A DNA stretch of 64,000 nucleotides. Source: Paludibacteraceae bacterium (GTDB lineage Bacteria > Bacteroidota > Bacteroidia > Bacteroidales > Paludibacteraceae). The position numbers were made by a program, and so were the translations under genes. The stretch is from positions 47,243 through 111,242 of the forward strand of contig JAKSKV010000007.1 of NCBI GenBank assembly GCA_024401555.1, in the 5' to 3' direction. Under the pieces are notes generated by a model that made no database searches, had not been told where the DNA came from, and was given only the letters and a program-made list of their open reading frames with translations. This document shows positions 3,353 to 10,350 of this stretch, piece by piece. Each line of letters begins with the position of its first letter. Position 1 is the stretch's first letter.

Positions 3353-4069
3353 ATGAAGATAGACAACAACACCGATATACAGGGCATGAAGGTTATTGTC
3401 CTCCAAAAGACAGGTCTTGTAGAGAAAAGTAGACAAGGTGTTGACCGCATGTTTGCTATCTGCATCTCTGAAGGCAAGCCTATTCCCGATTACTCTCTGA
3501 CCGATGAATGGCAGGTATGCCTACGTCTGCACGGAACAATTCAAGACCCTGCTCTCTTGCTTCTGATACACGATATTCAGCATAATCGTTCTACGACGGA
3601 AAAACGGAATGCCTCTGATCTTCTTGCCCTCTATCGCGTATCACGAGGCGAAAGTATACGCAATATTGATAGTGCGACCCTAAAGAAACTGTTATCTCAG
3701 GGGCTCTTGATAGAAACAGACAACGGAATAAAGCTCACACCCCTGTATGAGGAGATGAAGCTTCGTGCAAGTGTTATTGACAGAATAGAAGATCAGAATA
3801 TCCATTTAAATGATATGGTAAATGTCCCAGTAAATGATACGGTAAAGTTTTCACAACTTACTGAAAGACAGAAGAAGATTTATCATATCATAAAAGATGG
3901 TACGATAAATGATACTGCAAATGATACTGCAACCGCCAAAACATTATCAGAATCATTAGGCACCAGTATTATAACCATAAAACGTGATCTTGCTGCCATG
4001 CAATCCGTGGGTGTCATAAAGCGTGTCGGAAGTGATAAGACTGGACATTGGGAAGCAATCGTTAAATAA
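3353..4069 (+). pseudogene. 5'-truncated ATP-binding/HTH regulator (COG2865-like C-terminus)
   Basis: The 238 residues match only the C-terminal half of the AlbA_2/COG2865 family (often misnamed RecG-like helicase or divergent AAA regulator). VLQKTGLVEK at residues 16-25 followed by GVDRMF is the conserved tail of the ATPase-like domain, and residues about 165-235 form a winged helix (LTERQKKIYHIIK ... IKRDLAAMQ). Between them lie NDMVN/NDTV/NDTANDTA repeats, common in the linker of this family. The usual protein is roughly 450-500 aa; the N-terminal DNA-binding and ATPase parts are absent upstream, where the frame closes at 3284-3286. It may be a relic, or a surviving stand-alone regulator of the genes that start 17 bp downstream. 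Confidence 0.6.
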
Positions 4070-4086
4070 ACATACAAAGATTTTAA

Positions 4087-5082
4087 ATGGCATTCGGAAT
4101 AGACATAAAGGAGGAAGTAATGCGGTCTTGGGGACACGGAATCCTTGAGACGCTACTTCGCGATCACACTACGGGCGAAAATATAATCTGGGCAACCGAT
4201 GATTATGCTGAACGTGGTGAGGGTTACACCTTCTATGACCAGATAACGGCACAAAAAATCTGCTGTAATGAGAGTCGTGTGATCGTACCAAGAGTCTTAA
4301 AGGACAAGGATTGTCAAAAGAACAGGGCACGAAAGATGGCAGAGGTGTTCACACCTTCTTGGTTGTGCAACCAGATGCTCAATGATGTTGATGAGCGTTT
4401 GTTTGGACGCAAGGATGTATTCAATACTTGCACCGAAATGGGTAAGGTTTGGCGACCAACAGAAGCACCGGTATTTAAAGAAACAGACACATTAAAATGG
4501 AAAGAGTACGTCACCAAGACAGTAATGGAAATCACATGCGGTGAGGCTCCTTTCATTGTCAGCCGTTACGATACTGTGTCAGGACGTTTCTTTGATAATG
4601 TTAATCAACGAATTGGATTCCTCGACCGCAAACTTCGTGTTGTTACAGAGAACGTCAAGGAGAAAGAAGAGTGGATACATTGGGTAAAGATCGCCTATAA
4701 GTGTTCTTTCGGCTACGAGTGGCAAGGTGACAACTTGCTCTTGGCAAGACAAAACCTCTTGATGACGTTCTTTGACTATTACGAGACGGTTTGGAACGAA
4801 CAGCCATCTTGGGAGTTAGTCGCAGAAATGGCAGAGATCATTTCTTGGAACATCTGGCAGATGGATGGTTTAAAGTACGTGCTGCCTAAAAGTTGTAAGA
4901 CACAAGTCATCGAAGAATCTGACATCTTCGGTGAGATTACTCGCAAGGAAATTCCATGTGAAGGCTGCCTAAAGGATTTGAAGCATAAGCACAACGGAAT
5001 CTATGCCAAGATGATGGATTGGTCGAAAAATGAGGTCGTTGATGCTATAACATTCTTAAACCAAAAGGACAATGACAAATAG
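4087..5082 (+). CDS. Adenine methyltransferase-like subunit without NPPY motif
   Basis: A 331 aa protein of the kind found beside Eco57I-type methylase/helicase proteins and annotated as restriction subunit M. Visible motifs resemble gamma-class N6-adenine methyltransferases: motif X EVFTP at 86-90, a motif I-like MEITCGEAPF at 147-156, and a motif II-like YEWQGDNLLLARQNLL at 210-225. ISWNIWQMDGL at 253-263 resembles the stretch just before motif IV, but no (D/N)PP(Y/F) follows, so it should not transfer methyl groups alone. Two Cys pairs (C59-C60, CEGC at 291-294) are present. It overlaps the 1295 aa gene by 11 bp, implying coupled translation and a complex. The role as SAM-binding or specificity partner is inference. 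Confidence 0.75.
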   Translation: MAFGIDIKEEVMRSWGHGILETLLRDHTTGENIIWATDDYAERGEGYTFYDQITAQKICCNESRVIVPRVLKDKDCQKNRARKMAEVFTPSWLCNQMLNDVDERLFGRKDVFNTCTEMGKVWRPTEAPVFKETDTLKWKEYVTKTVMEITCGEAPFIVSRYDTVSGRFFDNVNQRIGFLDRKLRVVTENVKEKEEWIHWVKIAYKCSFGYEWQGDNLLLARQNLLMTFFDYYETVWNEQPSWELVAEMAEIISWNIWQMDGLKYVLPKSCKTQVIEESDIFGEITRKEIPCEGCLKDLKHKHNGIYAKMMDWSKNEVVDAITFLNQKDNDK

Positions 5083-8000
5083 TGCTATCATAGAAAAATT
5101 TATCGTAGGACGTGTGGAACCTCACATCTATGCGTTCGAGACAGGCACTGTGCCAAACTATCTGAAGATTGGTGACACGTATCGTCCTGTTGAAACGCGT
5201 TTGAATGAGTGGCGACGCTACTTTGCTGACCTGCAAAAGAAATACGATGAACCAGCAACCGCTGGCGATGAATACTTCCGTGACCTCTCGGTTCACGAAT
5301 ACATCATCCGCGAGAAGGGACGCAAGCGTCTCGAAAAAACAACCCTTCCGGACATTCCTTACTACTCGAACGAGTTCTTTGAGAATGCCACAACGGGGGA
5401 TGTGGATGAAGCTATTCAAGACATCAGGAAGAGTGCCACTGATAAAGATGGACGTTACAAGCTCTATTCGATGAAGGATGGCAGAGTGCCTGTTGACTTC
5501 CATTACGTAAGAGGTGAAGAGCCTATAGTATTGCGACCTAACCAGGAAGCGGTAGTCAAGAGATTCATTGAAGCCAAGAATCATCGTCGGACCCATTTGC
5601 TCATGTATGCCGTTATGCGATTTGGCAAATCCATCACGGCCATGAGTTGCGCAAAGGCTATGGATGCACACCTTGTAGTCGTTGTTTCAGCCAAAGCCGA
5701 TGTCAAGACAGAATGGAAGAAGACGGTAGAGAGTTTCAAGAACTTTGAAGGCTATGAGTTTGCCGACAGCGACGACTTGAAACGAAACGATTCTCTGATA
5801 AAGCAAGCAAAAAGGGAACGTAAGAACCTTGTTGTATGCCTAACGCTCCAAGACCTTAGCAGCAAGGAGGTGAAGGCACGCCATAAGGATTTGTTCCGTC
5901 AGAGCATAGACCTTCTGATTGTTGACGAAACGCACTTTGGAGCTCGTGCAGAACATTATGGCAAGGTGCTTCCTCCTGTAGGCGCAACACCTAAACAAGA
6001 GCGCAAATATGACGCAGAATCCGCTGATGAACTGGACATCCAAGTCAAGCAGCTTAATGCCAAAATGCAATTACACTTGTCTGGCACGCCATACAGAATC
6101 CTTATGGGTGATGAATTTACGGACGAGGACGTTATCTGCTACTGCCAGTTCTCTGACATTGCACAGGCAAGCGAAGAGTGGGATAAGGCGAATCTTGACA
6201 CCAAGGACGAATGGGAGAATCCTTACTATGGTTTCCCTCAAATGGTGCGTTTTGCCTTCAATCCCAACGAATCGTCCTTGCGAAAGCTGGCAGAACTGCA
6301 GAAGAACGGCATAACGATTGCTTTCAGCGAGTTGTTCAAGCCTAAATCAATCACGAAGTCAGCAGAGGGGCTGCATCAAAAGTTCGAGCATGAGGCTGAA
6401 ATACTTGATTTCCTTCATGCCATAGACGGAACAGAAGAGGATGGAAATATTCTTTCATTTCTTGCCAACGAGAGAATTCAAAACGGCAAACTCTGTCGCC
6501 ACATAGTTTGTGTACTGCCTTATCGTGCTTCATGTGATGCTATGGAACAACTCCTTGTCAATCATGCCAACGAGTTCAAGCATCTTTCAAACTACACAAT
6601 ACTGAACATTTCTGGCGTAGAAAACGAACGACTTTTCCCCAATGTGGATTCTGTGAAGAAGCGAATCTCCGATTTTGAAGCGAACGATCAAAAGACTATA
6701 ACGCTTACCGTATCAAGAATGATGACAGGTGTTACGGTTCCAGAATGGGACACGATGCTCTATCTAAAAGATACGGCTTCTCCACAGGAATACGATCAAG
6801 CCATCTTCCGTCTGCAAAGTCCTTACGTTAAGACCTATAAGGATGAGGAAGGTAACGAGATAAGGTACAACATGAAACCACAGACGCTTCTTGTTGACTT
6901 CGACCCAAATCGTATGTTTATTCTCCAGGAGTTACGCGCTCACATTTACGACATCAACACAGATGCCAATGGCAATAGCAACCTAGAAAGGCGCATAGAA
7001 CGTGAGTTGCAAGTTTCGCCTATCATCTGGATGAACAAGCAACACTTGCAAGAGGTAACTCCAGCTAATATTCTTGATGCAGTTCGTGCATACTCCAACG
7101 AGCGGAGCGTTCTTGATGAAGCAAAGGAAGTACCTGCGGATTTGTCGCTTGGTGACATTGACGAACTGAACGCTATCATCATGCGTCAGCAACCTATTGG
7201 TTCTCGCGGAGGTTTGAAAGTAAAACCAGCTGAGGAGGAAGGTGACGATGATTTGGATGTGCCAGACGTACCTGATTCGGGTGAACCATCCGAAAAGAAG
7301 CCCAAAGAAGAGAGCGAGACAAAGGAAGACAATAGTTTTGAAAAACGCCTTCAAACGCTCTATTCAAGGATTCTTCTTTACGCATTCCTCACAAACGACG
7401 AAGTCATCTCGCTTGAAGCAATGGTACTTTCGGCATGTAGCGGCAGTAACAACAAACGAATACTTGTAAATCTCGGATTGGACGTAAAGACATTGAAACT
7501 CCTGTTCAAGCACCTGAATCCAAACGTTCTTCACCAGCTCGACTACAAGATTCACAATATCAATTCGCTTGCTCACGATGAATCACTTTCGCCTATTGAG
7601 CGAGTAGAGAATGCCATGAGGAAGTTCGGTCGATGGTCAACTTCTGAGATTGTTACTCCGAATCACTTGGCGACACAGATGCTGTCAGAACTCCCTCGCA
7701 AGCAGATTACAGCAGACACCAAGTTCATGGACATTGCGTCGAAGGAAGGTGAGTTTGCATACGCGATCATTCAAACATTCGGCGAGCATTACAAGGACAA
7801 GATTTATTCCATCCCGACATCAACCATTGCCTACGAGTTCACCCGCAAGGTTTACGAGGCACTTGGAATGCCAATAGAGAACATAGAAAACGAATTTAAT
7901 TCATACGACCTCATCGGTGAAAACGCTGAGGTTCATATAAACAAGATAAAGAGTATGTGTATAAACATAGCAGTAGGTAATCCTCCTTATCAGGACGAAG

Positions 8001-8959
8001 GTGGTTCTGGCGGCACTAATGATGCACCTATTTATCAGAAATTCTGCAAGGTGGCAAAGGAAAACACTTCAAGTATGTCATCGCTTGTAATTCCAGCAAA
8101 GTGGTTTACTGGAGGTCGTGAGCATTTGCTTGGAGAATTCCGTAGAGACATGCTCAGTTCAAATGAGGTGTCATGTCTAACTGCATATCCAAATCACAAG
8201 GAATTGTTCCCTGAGGTTGAATTGAAAGGTGGAGTATGTTATTTTGTGCGAGGAAAGAAATATGATGGTGCTTGTAACTACTCTACAATTTCAAACGGAG
8301 TCATTGAAACAGCAGAGGTTAATCTTAGCGAAATGGATGTTTTTGTTAGAGAACCATTGAAGGCTAAAATTGTGGCAAAGGTCCTTGCTGTAGCAAAAAA
8401 CGAAGGGCAGAAATTTGTCAGCGAGATACTCTCTTCTGATACTCCATTTGGTGTTCCAACAAATCCAACCAAGAATAAGAAAGTCGTTTATGAGGTTCAA
8501 AATAGTAAAGATGACGAATTCTCTGTAGAGCTTCATTATCTTATCAACAATAAAAGACATACGGGTTACATTAAGAAAGACTCAATTAAGAAGAATTCGG
8601 ATGATATTGACAAGATAAAAGTTTATGTACCAGCTGCTGGTGGCTCAGGTAATGACAAAATTGTCTTAGGCAAACCTATAATAGCAATGCCTCCTTCAGT
8701 TTGTTCTCAAACATACCTATACGCTACATTCGCTTCGCTCAACGAAGCAGAAAATTTCGTTTCTTATCTAAAGACACGATTCTTCCGCTTCCTTGTATCT
8801 GCCATAAAGATCACCCAGCACGCCCAATCTTCTGTTTACAAGTTCGTTCCTGTTCATGATTTCTCTGAAGTATGGACGGACGAGAGACTTTTCGCAAAAT
8901 ATGGAATAATAGAAGACGAGAAAGAATACATTATGGCAGGAATAAATGTTATGGAATAA
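5072..8959 (+). CDS. GIY-YIG-like nuclease / SF2 helicase / N6-adenine methyltransferase fusion
   Basis: A 1295 aa single-chain restriction-modification-like protein. Residues 15-80 resemble a GIY-YIG (T5orf172-like) nuclease: PHIYAF, NYLKIGDT, Arg43 and a HEYI segment with Glu76. Residues 150-600 form an SF2 helicase: RPNQEAV Q-like motif (155-161), Walker A variant MRFGKS (182-187), DETH (285-288), SGTPYR (337-342) and a motif VI-like QAIFRLQSPY near 577. An acidic linker (about 718-755) leads to the methylase: VTP motif X (861-863), motif I DIASKEGEF (887-895) and motif IV NPPY (970-973). The tail (about 1000-1295) is a likely target recognition domain. The order recalls type ISP enzymes, which carry an Mrr-like nuclease instead. 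Nuclease assignment is the least certain part. Confidence 0.85.
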   Translation: MTNSAIIEKFIVGRVEPHIYAFETGTVPNYLKIGDTYRPVETRLNEWRRYFADLQKKYDEPATAGDEYFRDLSVHEYIIREKGRKRLEKTTLPDIPYYSNEFFENATTGDVDEAIQDIRKSATDKDGRYKLYSMKDGRVPVDFHYVRGEEPIVLRPNQEAVVKRFIEAKNHRRTHLLMYAVMRFGKSITAMSCAKAMDAHLVVVVSAKADVKTEWKKTVESFKNFEGYEFADSDDLKRNDSLIKQAKRERKNLVVCLTLQDLSSKEVKARHKDLFRQSIDLLIVDETHFGARAEHYGKVLPPVGATPKQERKYDAESADELDIQVKQLNAKMQLHLSGTPYRILMGDEFTDEDVICYCQFSDIAQASEEWDKANLDTKDEWENPYYGFPQMVRFAFNPNESSLRKLAELQKNGITIAFSELFKPKSITKSAEGLHQKFEHEAEILDFLHAIDGTEEDGNILSFLANERIQNGKLCRHIVCVLPYRASCDAMEQLLVNHANEFKHLSNYTILNISGVENERLFPNVDSVKKRISDFEANDQKTITLTVSRMMTGVTVPEWDTMLYLKDTASPQEYDQAIFRLQSPYVKTYKDEEGNEIRYNMKPQTLLVDFDPNRMFILQELRAHIYDINTDANGNSNLERRIERELQVSPIIWMNKQHLQEVTPANILDAVRAYSNERSVLDEAKEVPADLSLGDIDELNAIIMRQQPIGSRGGLKVKPAEEEGDDDLDVPDVPDSGEPSEKKPKEESETKEDNSFEKRLQTLYSRILLYAFLTNDEVISLEAMVLSACSGSNNKRILVNLGLDVKTLKLLFKHLNPNVLHQLDYKIHNINSLAHDESLSPIERVENAMRKFGRWSTSEIVTPNHLATQMLSELPRKQITADTKFMDIASKEGEFAYAIIQTFGEHYKDKIYSIPTSTIAYEFTRKVYEALGMPIENIENEFNSYDLIGENAEVHINKIKSMCINIAVGNPPYQDEGGSGGTNDAPIYQKFCKVAKENTSSMSSLVIPAKWFTGGREHLLGEFRRDMLSSNEVSCLTAYPNHKELFPEVELKGGVCYFVRGKKYDGACNYSTISNGVIETAEVNLSEMDVFVREPLKAKIVAKVLAVAKNEGQKFVSEILSSDTPFGVPTNPTKNKKVVYEVQNSKDDEFSVELHYLINNKRHTGYIKKDSIKKNSDDIDKIKVYVPAAGGSGNDKIVLGKPIIAMPPSVCSQTYLYATFASLNEAENFVSYLKTRFFRFLVSAIKITQHAQSSVYKFVPVHDFSEVWTDERLFAKYGIIEDEKEYIMAGINVME

Positions 8960-9207: not shown

Positions 9208-10350
9208 ATGAGCGAAGAACAGAAATATATTGACTTTGAATCTTACCAGCGTGTGGCTGAGCCGCATAAGCGTGAGAAGGCTTTGGCTTGGCGTACTGCG
9301 ATAGGTCTTCAGGATGTGGACGGACTTCGAGTGTCCGAATATCTGAAGGAAACCGCTGTTAAGCACATCGAGGGTGACATTACCATCGATGAGGTTAGAG
9401 AGCAACTTCGATCATACTATGTGAATAAGACAACGCATGACGCTGACGACGCTGAAAAGGAAGAGGCTGACCGTGTAGCGGCAAATATTACAAAACTCCT
9501 AAATGAGAAGTCGTTCTCTTTTACTCCTTTGGAGTTCTTGAATATCCATCGTCATTTATTTGAGGGCGTTTTTAAGCACGCTGGTGAAATTCGTCCTTTT
9601 GACATTAGTAAAAAGGAATGGGTGTTACAAGGCGACTCAGTTGTATATGGACGAGCTGCGGACATCCATGCAACATTGAAATATGACATACAGAATGAAC
9701 GTGATTTTATCTATAAAGGCTTGCCCACAGATGAAATCATCTCTCATATTGTGGATTTTGTGTCTTTGCTTTGGCAGAACCATCCATTCCGTGAAGGTAA
9801 CACTCGCACAACTGCTGTGTTCGTCATCAAATATCTGCGTTCTTGTGGTTTCAAAGTGAACAATGAACTGTTTGCAGATAATTCTTGGTATTTTCGCAAT
9901 GCCCTTGTGCGTGCCAATTACAGTAATCCGCAGAAGGGAATACAACCAGACAACTCTTTTCTCGTGAAGTTCTTCCGAAATCTGTTGCTCGGTGAGAACA
10001 ACGAACTGAAGAATCGTTATATGCTGATTGGGTATAAGGAGGACGAGGGTGATACCCATACAACCACCCATACAACCACCCATACAAGTTCAAATGATAT
10101 ACAACCTTCATCAGATAATGTGATGCGTTTGGTATTGGCAATCGGCAAAGAAGAGATGAGTGTTAAGGATATGATGGAAGCTGTAGGTTTGAAGAATCGC
10201 CCTAATTTTCTGGATTATTCACTCACACCAGCCATTCATGAGGGATTCGTGTGTATGAAGTACCCAGACAACCCCCATCATCCTCGTCAACGTTATTCGC
10301 TGACCGTTAAAGGAATGATGTTGTTGGACGTGAACAATATTAGAAACTAA
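9208..10350 (+). CDS. Fic family protein with C-terminal winged helix
   Basis: Fic proteins usually transfer AMP from ATP to protein hydroxyl groups. The catalytic motif is HPFREGNTRT at 192-201, with the usual His; Thr replaces the second Gly of the classical GNGR, a variant found in many Fic proteins. The N-terminal stretch AVKHIEGDITIDEV (50-63) resembles the helical region seen in VbhA-like inhibitory modules, but an exact (S/T)xxxE(G/N) motif was not found. Residues about 283-294 are a Thr/His linker encoded by 12 bp repeats, followed by a winged-helix-like C-terminus. It lies downstream of the restriction-like operon and shares its codon habit, so it may be a toxin or signalling arm of the island. 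Confidence 0.88.
   Translation: MSEEQKYIDFESYQRVAEPHKREKALAWRTAIGLQDVDGLRVSEYLKETAVKHIEGDITIDEVREQLRSYYVNKTTHDADDAEKEEADRVAANITKLLNEKSFSFTPLEFLNIHRHLFEGVFKHAGEIRPFDISKKEWVLQGDSVVYGRAADIHATLKYDIQNERDFIYKGLPTDEIISHIVDFVSLLWQNHPFREGNTRTTAVFVIKYLRSCGFKVNNELFADNSWYFRNALVRANYSNPQKGIQPDNSFLVKFFRNLLLGENNELKNRYMLIGYKEDEGDTHTTTHTTTHTSSNDIQPSSDNVMRLVLAIGKEEMSVKDMMEAVGLKNRPNFLDYSLTPAIHEGFVCMKYPDNPHHPRQRYSLTVKGMMLLDVNNIRN
10054..10088 (+). repeat. 12 bp in-frame tandem repeat inside fic
   Basis: The unit ACCCATACAACC occurs nearly three times in a row, encoding Thr-His-Thr-Thr repeats in the linker before the winged helix. Because the unit is a multiple of three, copy-number changes would alter linker length without a frameshift. 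Confidence 0.8.

Follow-up and report, generated by a model that had tools for sequence, protein, structure and literature searches.

The window analysed here comprises 64,000 nt of contig JAKSKV010000007.1 of a Paludibacteraceae bacterium (GCA_024401555.1), and all coordinates are given in window numbering on the forward strand. Two reading frames on a common strand, overlapping by 11 bases, encode a small protein of 331 amino acids (aa) and a big chain of 1295 aa (Table 1). The modules were named FRONT (the small protein, M1-like), NUC (nuclease), HEL (motor), Fp (second front half) and BACK (NPPY half, M2-like), the last four being arranged in this order in the big chain. The two genes probably form a DrdVI-type split-methylase restriction-modification (RM) system in a two-gene layout, in which the small protein, M1, would complete the M2 half of the big chain. 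Both chains are covered almost end to end by PADLOC models (PDLC03626 REase_MTase_IIG for the big chain, E=0; PDLC03390 MTase_II for the small protein, 6e-110), and PADLOC thus already contains both families, without a mechanism.

Table 1. Features of the two-gene system in the window (SAM, S-adenosylmethionine; SF2, superfamily 2).
Feature	Position	Strand	Remarks
FRONT, M1-like protein, 331 aa	4087..5082	+	putative SAM-binding front half, gamma-class adenine methylase, without NPPY
FRONT motif X, AEVFTPSW, residues 85-92	4339..4362	+	E86, T89, P90, W92 in 61/61 rows
FRONT motif I, MEITCGEAPF, residues 147-156	4525..4554	+	E148, C151, G152, E153, P155 in 61/61 rows
FRONT motif II, FGYEWQGDN, residues 208-216	4708..4734	+	acid 211: E in 34 and D in 27 of 61 rows
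FRONT motif III, WNIWQMDGL, residues 254-262	4846..4872	+	D260 in 61/61 rows
FRONT CxxC..H region, residues 291-312	4957..5022	+	C291 59/61, C294 58/61, H302 58/61 rows
Big chain, 1295 aa: NUC, HEL, Fp, BACK in order	5072..8959	+	
T5orf172/GIY-YIG-type nuclease domain, residues 5-147	5084..5512	+	Pfam and alignment
Asp71, predicted catalytic acid	5282..5284	+	alignment; Glu in ordinary T5orf172 proteins
SF2 helicase-like motor, residues 154-683	5531..7120	+	Pfam ResIII and alignment
Fp, altered front half, residues 830-948	7559..7915	+	motif I DIASKEGEF; motif II acid absent
BACK, catalytic half and target recognition tail, residues 962-1294	7955..8953	+	
NPPY, motif IV, residues 970-973	7979..7990	+	
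Target recognition tail, approximately residues 1060-1295	8249..8956	+	exchanged as block in near relatives
Stretch common with Prevotella locus L028, 90% DNA identity	3398..9137	.	flanks unmatched

The closest characterised relatives were found on plasmid pDrdVI of Deinococcus wulumuqiensis NEB 479, on which genes for a short FRONT (212 aa), an Fp-BACK protein (539 aa) and a T5orf172-motor protein (851 aa) lie in a row. These three genes are read as DrdVI from the plasmid name, its content and two papers (PMC6430315, PMC10113651), the first of which lists DrdVI as RM type IIG. In blastp comparisons, with E-values computed in a set of eight proteins, the small protein matched M1 of pDrdVI (5.6e-7), residues 904-1295 of the big chain matched M2 (32% identity, 3e-52) and residues 15-673 matched the helicase (25% identity, 2e-44); the Fp region of the big chain additionally gave a weak match to M1 (0.002). 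A FRONT profile built from 61 rows matched 14 short front halves (99.2%, 1.4e-19). Given this homology of the two window proteins to all three pDrdVI proteins, the window system is assigned to the DrdVI split-methylase family. The features of this type, namely an M1 front half without NPPY, an M2 half with NPPY and target domain, and a fusion of GIY-YIG restriction endonuclease and translocase, are all found at the locus as judged by sequence.

For the 331-aa chain no match was obtained in Pfam. It carries the motifs X, I, II and III listed in Table 1, and its acids E148, E/D211 and D260 (61/61 rows each) match the positions by which S-adenosylhomocysteine (SAH) is held in CamA, a solved gamma-order adenine methylase. 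According to PMC8187626, these are Asp60 in motif I, Asp114 in motif II and Asp149 in motif III, and the catalytic-site Tyr lies within NPPY. By analogy with CamA, acid 211 would contact the ribose of SAM. A profile built jointly from fusions, Fp-BACK proteins and FRONT rows found CamA in the PDB (6e-10). The CxxC..H region is a possible metal site. The pattern [NDS]PP[YFWH] was absent from 123/123 FRONT-only frames as well as from the window protein, in agreement with the initial annotation, which had described an overlapping gene without NPPY. Its further view of this gene as a second methylase-like chain was given up: the motifs point to a front half only, which would provide SAM binding while the big chain contributes the catalytic half of the divided methylase. 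That the 331-aa protein methylates independently was likewise rejected, as the catalytic motif is missing from all FRONT-only frames. A relative at L157 (6749-8272) has 507 aa, with about 175 additional N-terminal residues.

In a contig scan for relatives of the small protein, 492 stretches were obtained, and the best 80 of the 492 loci were retained. A frame with a nuclease domain adjoins the small gene in 79 of these 80, at a distance of at most 60 bases in 77 of the 79; the exception, L053, holds only an 80-aa fragment of the big chain. An intact big chain is located within 60 bases downstream in 57 loci, while it runs off the contig in 10, separated by one intervening gene in 2 and interrupted in 9, the fusion layout accounting for 1. 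The reverse search gave a similar picture, with a front-half gene in the fetched stretch of 23 of the 25 genomes found by the big-chain model; the two others are G111, on a contig that starts 912 bases ahead of the motor, and G338, in which another protein was weakly matched. The gene pairing, for which a survey of gene neighbourhoods had been suggested, is real and conserved and not due to chance. Each of the two models matches 25/393 genomes of the order, some matches being weak or fragments, and in the window's genome the small-protein model matches at one place. Relatives were found in many gut Bacteroidota and Bacillota, also on plasmids; the small protein of Prevotella sp. P5-92 shows 97% identity to that of the window. 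The nine loci with an interrupted big chain and an open small gene are L040, L056, L057, L059, L069, L086, L087, L092 and L098; the interruptions may reflect decay, phase variation or assembly error.

The N-terminal part of the big chain was assigned to T5orf172 by Pfam (residues 18-117), and ResIII (residues 152-342) and Eco57I methylase (934-1046) follow. For T5orf172 the cut-off is 20 bits; the N-terminal segment searched by itself scored 24.5 bits, and the whole chain 19.8 bits, slightly below it. When the T5orf172 model was run against the window's own genome, no match was listed at 0.001. Among 63 aligned rows, each run singly at 0.01, Pfam called T5orf172 in 33 (best 8e-9) and left 30 uncalled. 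Residues 5-147 can be aligned over three divergent classes with Y20, K32, G34, D71 and E101 invariant in 63/63 rows, and Arg43 is kept in 20/20 rows (17 system members and three ordinary T5orf172 proteins). In the three ordinary proteins the Tyr, the K-x-G, Arg43, the acid and E101 occupy the same columns; their acid is Glu, whereas each of the 17 system members in the alignment, among them the pDrdVI protein, has Asp. The T5orf172/GIY-YIG signature (Y, K-x-G, Arg, an acid and His four residues on) is complete in the window protein, with Asp71 as the acid and H75 as the His; the proteins from pDrdVI and Rhizobium have Arg at the position of H75. The alignment makes Asp71 the likely catalytic acid. 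The motor motifs G185/K186, D285/E286/H288, S337-P340 and R580 are invariant across 17 aligned chains. The 1295-aa frame had initially been described as carrying a nuclease-like start, helicase motifs and NPPY, with a GIY-YIG-superfamily nuclease in place of the Mrr nuclease of type ISP, and with Arg43 and Glu76 as catalytic residues. The three Pfam assignments agree with this architecture, including the profile search of the N-terminus, and Arg43 was retained; Glu76 was discarded, since this position varies freely among the aligned proteins and the invariant acid is Asp71.

The exchange of Glu for Asp in 63/63 rows, together with the big chains interrupted in 9/80 loci, would fit a system of modification or regulation only, with a nuclease rendered inactive by Asp71. 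This is extremely unlikely, as the Asp is itself invariant, Y20, K32, G34, R43 and E101 are kept, and the pDrdVI protein also has Asp, yet DrdVI is listed as RM type IIG (PMC6430315).

For the layout of the modules, a set of loci was collected by searches with the small protein, with the fusion and with the big-chain model, and near-identical loci were retained. Module profiles were applied to 149 loci, and after removal of eight viral-contig repeats 141 remained, of which 108 are complete (FRONT, BACK and motor); the other 33 comprise contig ends, interrupted genes, a lone front half, and a few loci not holding the system. Because of the way the loci were gathered and the near-identical ones remaining, the following counts are not natural frequencies. 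BACK is part of the motor chain, as in the window, in 85 of the 108 complete loci (among them L224, whose front half is short, and L059, which is interrupted). The layout FRONT-BACK / NUC-HEL-Fp is present in 8, FRONT / BACK / NUC-HEL-Fp with a free-standing BACK in 6, and FRONT / Fp-BACK / NUC-HEL in 9 as counted, among them L040, a broken class B big chain. In the fusion at L070 (656 aa) the small protein (46% identity) is directly joined to the NPPY half (27% identity to residues 960-1295 of the big chain), and its partner of 1122 aa ends shortly before NPPY. As placed by these motifs, the break in the methylase falls between motifs III and IV, i.e. between the SAM-binding and the catalytic motifs.

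NPPY is kept in 114/114 BACK rows above 100 bits, and Fp occurs in 108/108 complete loci. In Fp, the first glycine of motif I is kept in 0/105 parsed rows; of all 110 rows, 98 have Lys (KxG 94, KxA 4), 7 have Thr and 5 are unparsed. The position of the motif II acid holds Pro, Ala, Cys or an aliphatic residue in 92 parsed rows (18/110 unparsed; the class B column is approximate). A gamma-class methylase complete in one chain was not found in the big chain, which has NPPY but combines it with an Fp with KxG and no motif II acid. In profile comparisons, matches to the short front halves were given by class C Fp (99.6%, 7.7e-25), three-gene Fp (98.1%, 1.1e-13) and class A Fp (89.2%), and the class B Fp matched that of the three-gene systems (92.5%). 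Because of these matches, Fp looks like a paralogue of FRONT, i.e. a duplicated front half. Against this kinship, the long FRONT profile reached only 4.8% with the three-gene Fp in a clean comparison (90.9% in an earlier one), and the class B Fp was matched neither by the long FRONT profile nor by the short front halves (0.2-0.5%).

Fp and BACK reside in one chain in 94/108 complete loci (85 and 9, including L040), and the Eco57I match starts at residue 934, within the end of Fp. The big chain could accordingly be viewed as a complete type ISP-like enzyme in which Fp and BACK bind SAM and methylate, with the 331-aa protein as a scaffolding or regulating pseudo-methylase. METTL14 plays such a pseudo-methylase role for METTL3. 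FRONT motif I is likewise short of one glycine, and Fp is not idle, since it is never missing from a complete locus and keeps KxG in 94/110 rows. This alternative is improbable nonetheless, because Fp lacks the first motif I glycine and the motif II acid in all parsed rows, because Fp is broken in phage PTm1 with the FRONT and BACK frames open, and because BACK sits on FRONT instead in 8 loci.

The halves of the system are exchanged between relatives. Between loci L028 and L029, identity amounts to 98-100% in FRONT, NUC, HEL and Fp but drops to 84% in the initial part of BACK and to 50% in its tail, and L159 (class B) and L093 (class A) have BACK modules of 88-91% identity despite motors of different classes. 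These comparisons show BACK, by its sequence, as a mobile cassette that changes chains and whose target tail is replaced as a block. The nuclease-class changes needed number 2 on the motor tree, 19 on the BACK tree and 19 (17 by a second method) on the FRONT tree of 116 rows; at least 8-9 of the latter cross well-supported branches, and some long branches are unsure. Judged from this tree, FRONT has changed partners too.

Several points weigh against a split methylase of the DrdVI type with an active nuclease. Motif I of FRONT is mostly TxGxA, unlike the SxGxG of CamA; GxG is retained in the short front halves of three-gene relatives, e.g. L138. In the nuclease, Asp takes the place of the Glu of T5orf172, and cleavage is a prediction. 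A PDB search with the big chain returned weak, unrelated chains only, and those with the nuclease, FRONT and whole-big-chain profiles gave no matches. FRONT distances barely follow those of BACK (r 0.09-0.25, with 0.20 and 0.09 for the catalytic half in the two classes; 33 and 37 loci) and follow those of motor and nuclease (r 0.46-0.79). As co-divergence of FRONT and BACK was not found, coevolution gives no backing to a specific contact between them, and the distance correlation speaks neither for nor against their docking.

In the proposed mechanism, M1 would bind SAM via motifs X, I, II and III and join, in trans, the C-terminal M2 half of the big chain, which has NPPY and the target recognition part, giving a working N6-adenine methylase. 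Where the same target half meets an unmethylated site, the SF2 motor would move along DNA on ATP, and the T5orf172/GIY-YIG domain of the big chain would then cut the DNA. It is possible, although this is put forward tentatively, that one catalytic and target-reading half is common to both front halves: on M1 it would act as the methylase and on Fp as the target-reading head of the motor-nuclease, so that the choice of front half sets marking or cutting and phages tip this choice. Such an alternation of BACK is suggested because Fp is never missing in the 108 complete loci, and because it is broken or absent in two phages which keep only FRONT and BACK.

FRONT and BACK are carried by the Tenacibaculum phages PTm1 and PTm5. 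In PTm1 (L239, 4107-7008), FRONT has 335 aa and BACK, beginning just before NPPY, has 344 aa, both frames being open, and the Fp stretch ahead of BACK is split into two frames. With the full-length model, BACK and the end of Fp were the only parts of the big chain found in all 224,680 bases of PTm1, with no nuclease or motor. Fusobacterium phage FNU4 has FRONT-BACK in a single frame without the remaining modules; its 5' end may be defective, because no start codon lies in frame before motif X. Seven further phage contigs (L202, L203, L205, L206, L207, L242, L243) have a front half of 198-281 aa, and their records contain neither BACK nor motor; some records are fragments, and SAM motifs are present in the three sequences read (L202, L203, L206). 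These solitary front halves could serve in counter-defence or as modification boosters. In the gut phage contig L241, nuclease-motor and Fp are in separate frames. Under the proposed alternation, phages would tip the balance, PTm1 by retaining M1 and BACK without the restriction part and others by their solitary M1 halves. With the site of the break, the duplicated front half and the chain changes of BACK established by the survey, it becomes testable whether a shared catalytic half switches between a marking and a cutting complex; the survey also points to natural exchangeable specificity cassettes. In the records seen, pieces of the family are annotated as 'restriction endonuclease subunit M', 'Eco57I methylase' or 'hypothetical protein'.

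As the flanks differ between the window and L028, the stretch common to both appears to move as a cassette. Almost wholly within it, just upstream of the small gene (3353-4069), lies a gene for a 238-aa protein with weak RecG-like ATPase and helix-turn-helix (HTH) matches, possibly truncated. The gene directly downstream of the big chain (9208-10350) codes for a Fic protein of 380 aa in which a VbhA-like antitoxin part is combined with a Fic-like C-terminus; it matches the PADLOC candidate PDC-S72 (5e-126). Among the relatives, the same kind of approximately 350-aa gene is located between the small and the next gene in L038 (7972-9045), L068 (1414-2460) and L140 (4042-5097), and we take it to resemble a YhcG/DUF1016 nuclease. 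On an Enterococcus faecium plasmid (L236, 5699-5902) and in phage PTm1 (L239, 5804-6004), the small gene is immediately preceded by an HTH gene of about 67 codons, reminiscent of the control proteins of RM systems. On Bifidobacterium longum plasmid p1 (L237, 7077-8261) an IS256-family transposase gene separates the front-half gene from a free NPPY-half gene.

Compared with known systems, CamA of Clostridioides difficile, the best PDB match of the joined front and back profile, has the same gamma order and the three SAM-binding acids; unlike the window system, it is an orphan of one chain without nuclease or motor. The type ISP enzymes LlaGI and LlaBIII likewise unite a nuclease, an SF2 motor, a gamma adenine methylase and a target domain within a single chain, and their C-terminal methylase half and target domain are more variable than the front, as in the family of the window system. 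They differ in the Mrr nuclease, the single polypeptide and the absence of an M1 partner, and membership in type ISP was rejected on account of the T5orf172 N-terminus, the conserved M1 partner and the altered methylase motifs of the big chain. The initial annotation had in effect proposed a type ISP enzyme with exchanged nuclease and a second, independent methylase chain. The order nuclease-motor-methylase-target is indeed that of LlaGI in PMC4872093, but there LlaGI is a single polypeptide, and the LlaBIII structure given in the same paper (4XQK) was not retrieved from the PDB by the big chain or its profile; with a second chain devoid of the catalytic motif in all 123 frames and with M1 of DrdVI as its nearest characterised kin found, this proposal is very unlikely. 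The unusual restriction or anti-phage system that had been considered possible is not a new type; the window system falls into the published DrdVI family. The split-methylase concept is already published, and the family is called 'split methylase/RM' in print. MaeIV of Methanococcus aeolicus, likened here by description, is named as a split methylase/RM similar to DrdVI, with N6-methyladenine (m6A) at GCACY on one strand (M1/M2.MaeIV, PMC10113651). In searches of open PMC papers, no description was found of the duplicated front half or of BACK changing chains; these points, together with a phage that has both methylase halves minus the restriction part, are the fresh contributions. DrdVI itself, which places m6A at GCAGCC, shares with the window system the homology of all its proteins, the GIY-YIG-type nuclease on the motor and the split methylase. 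Unlike DrdVI with its three genes, the window system has M2 fused behind the nuclease-motor, and its M1 of 331 aa, compared with 212 aa in DrdVI, contains extra N-terminal and CxxC parts.

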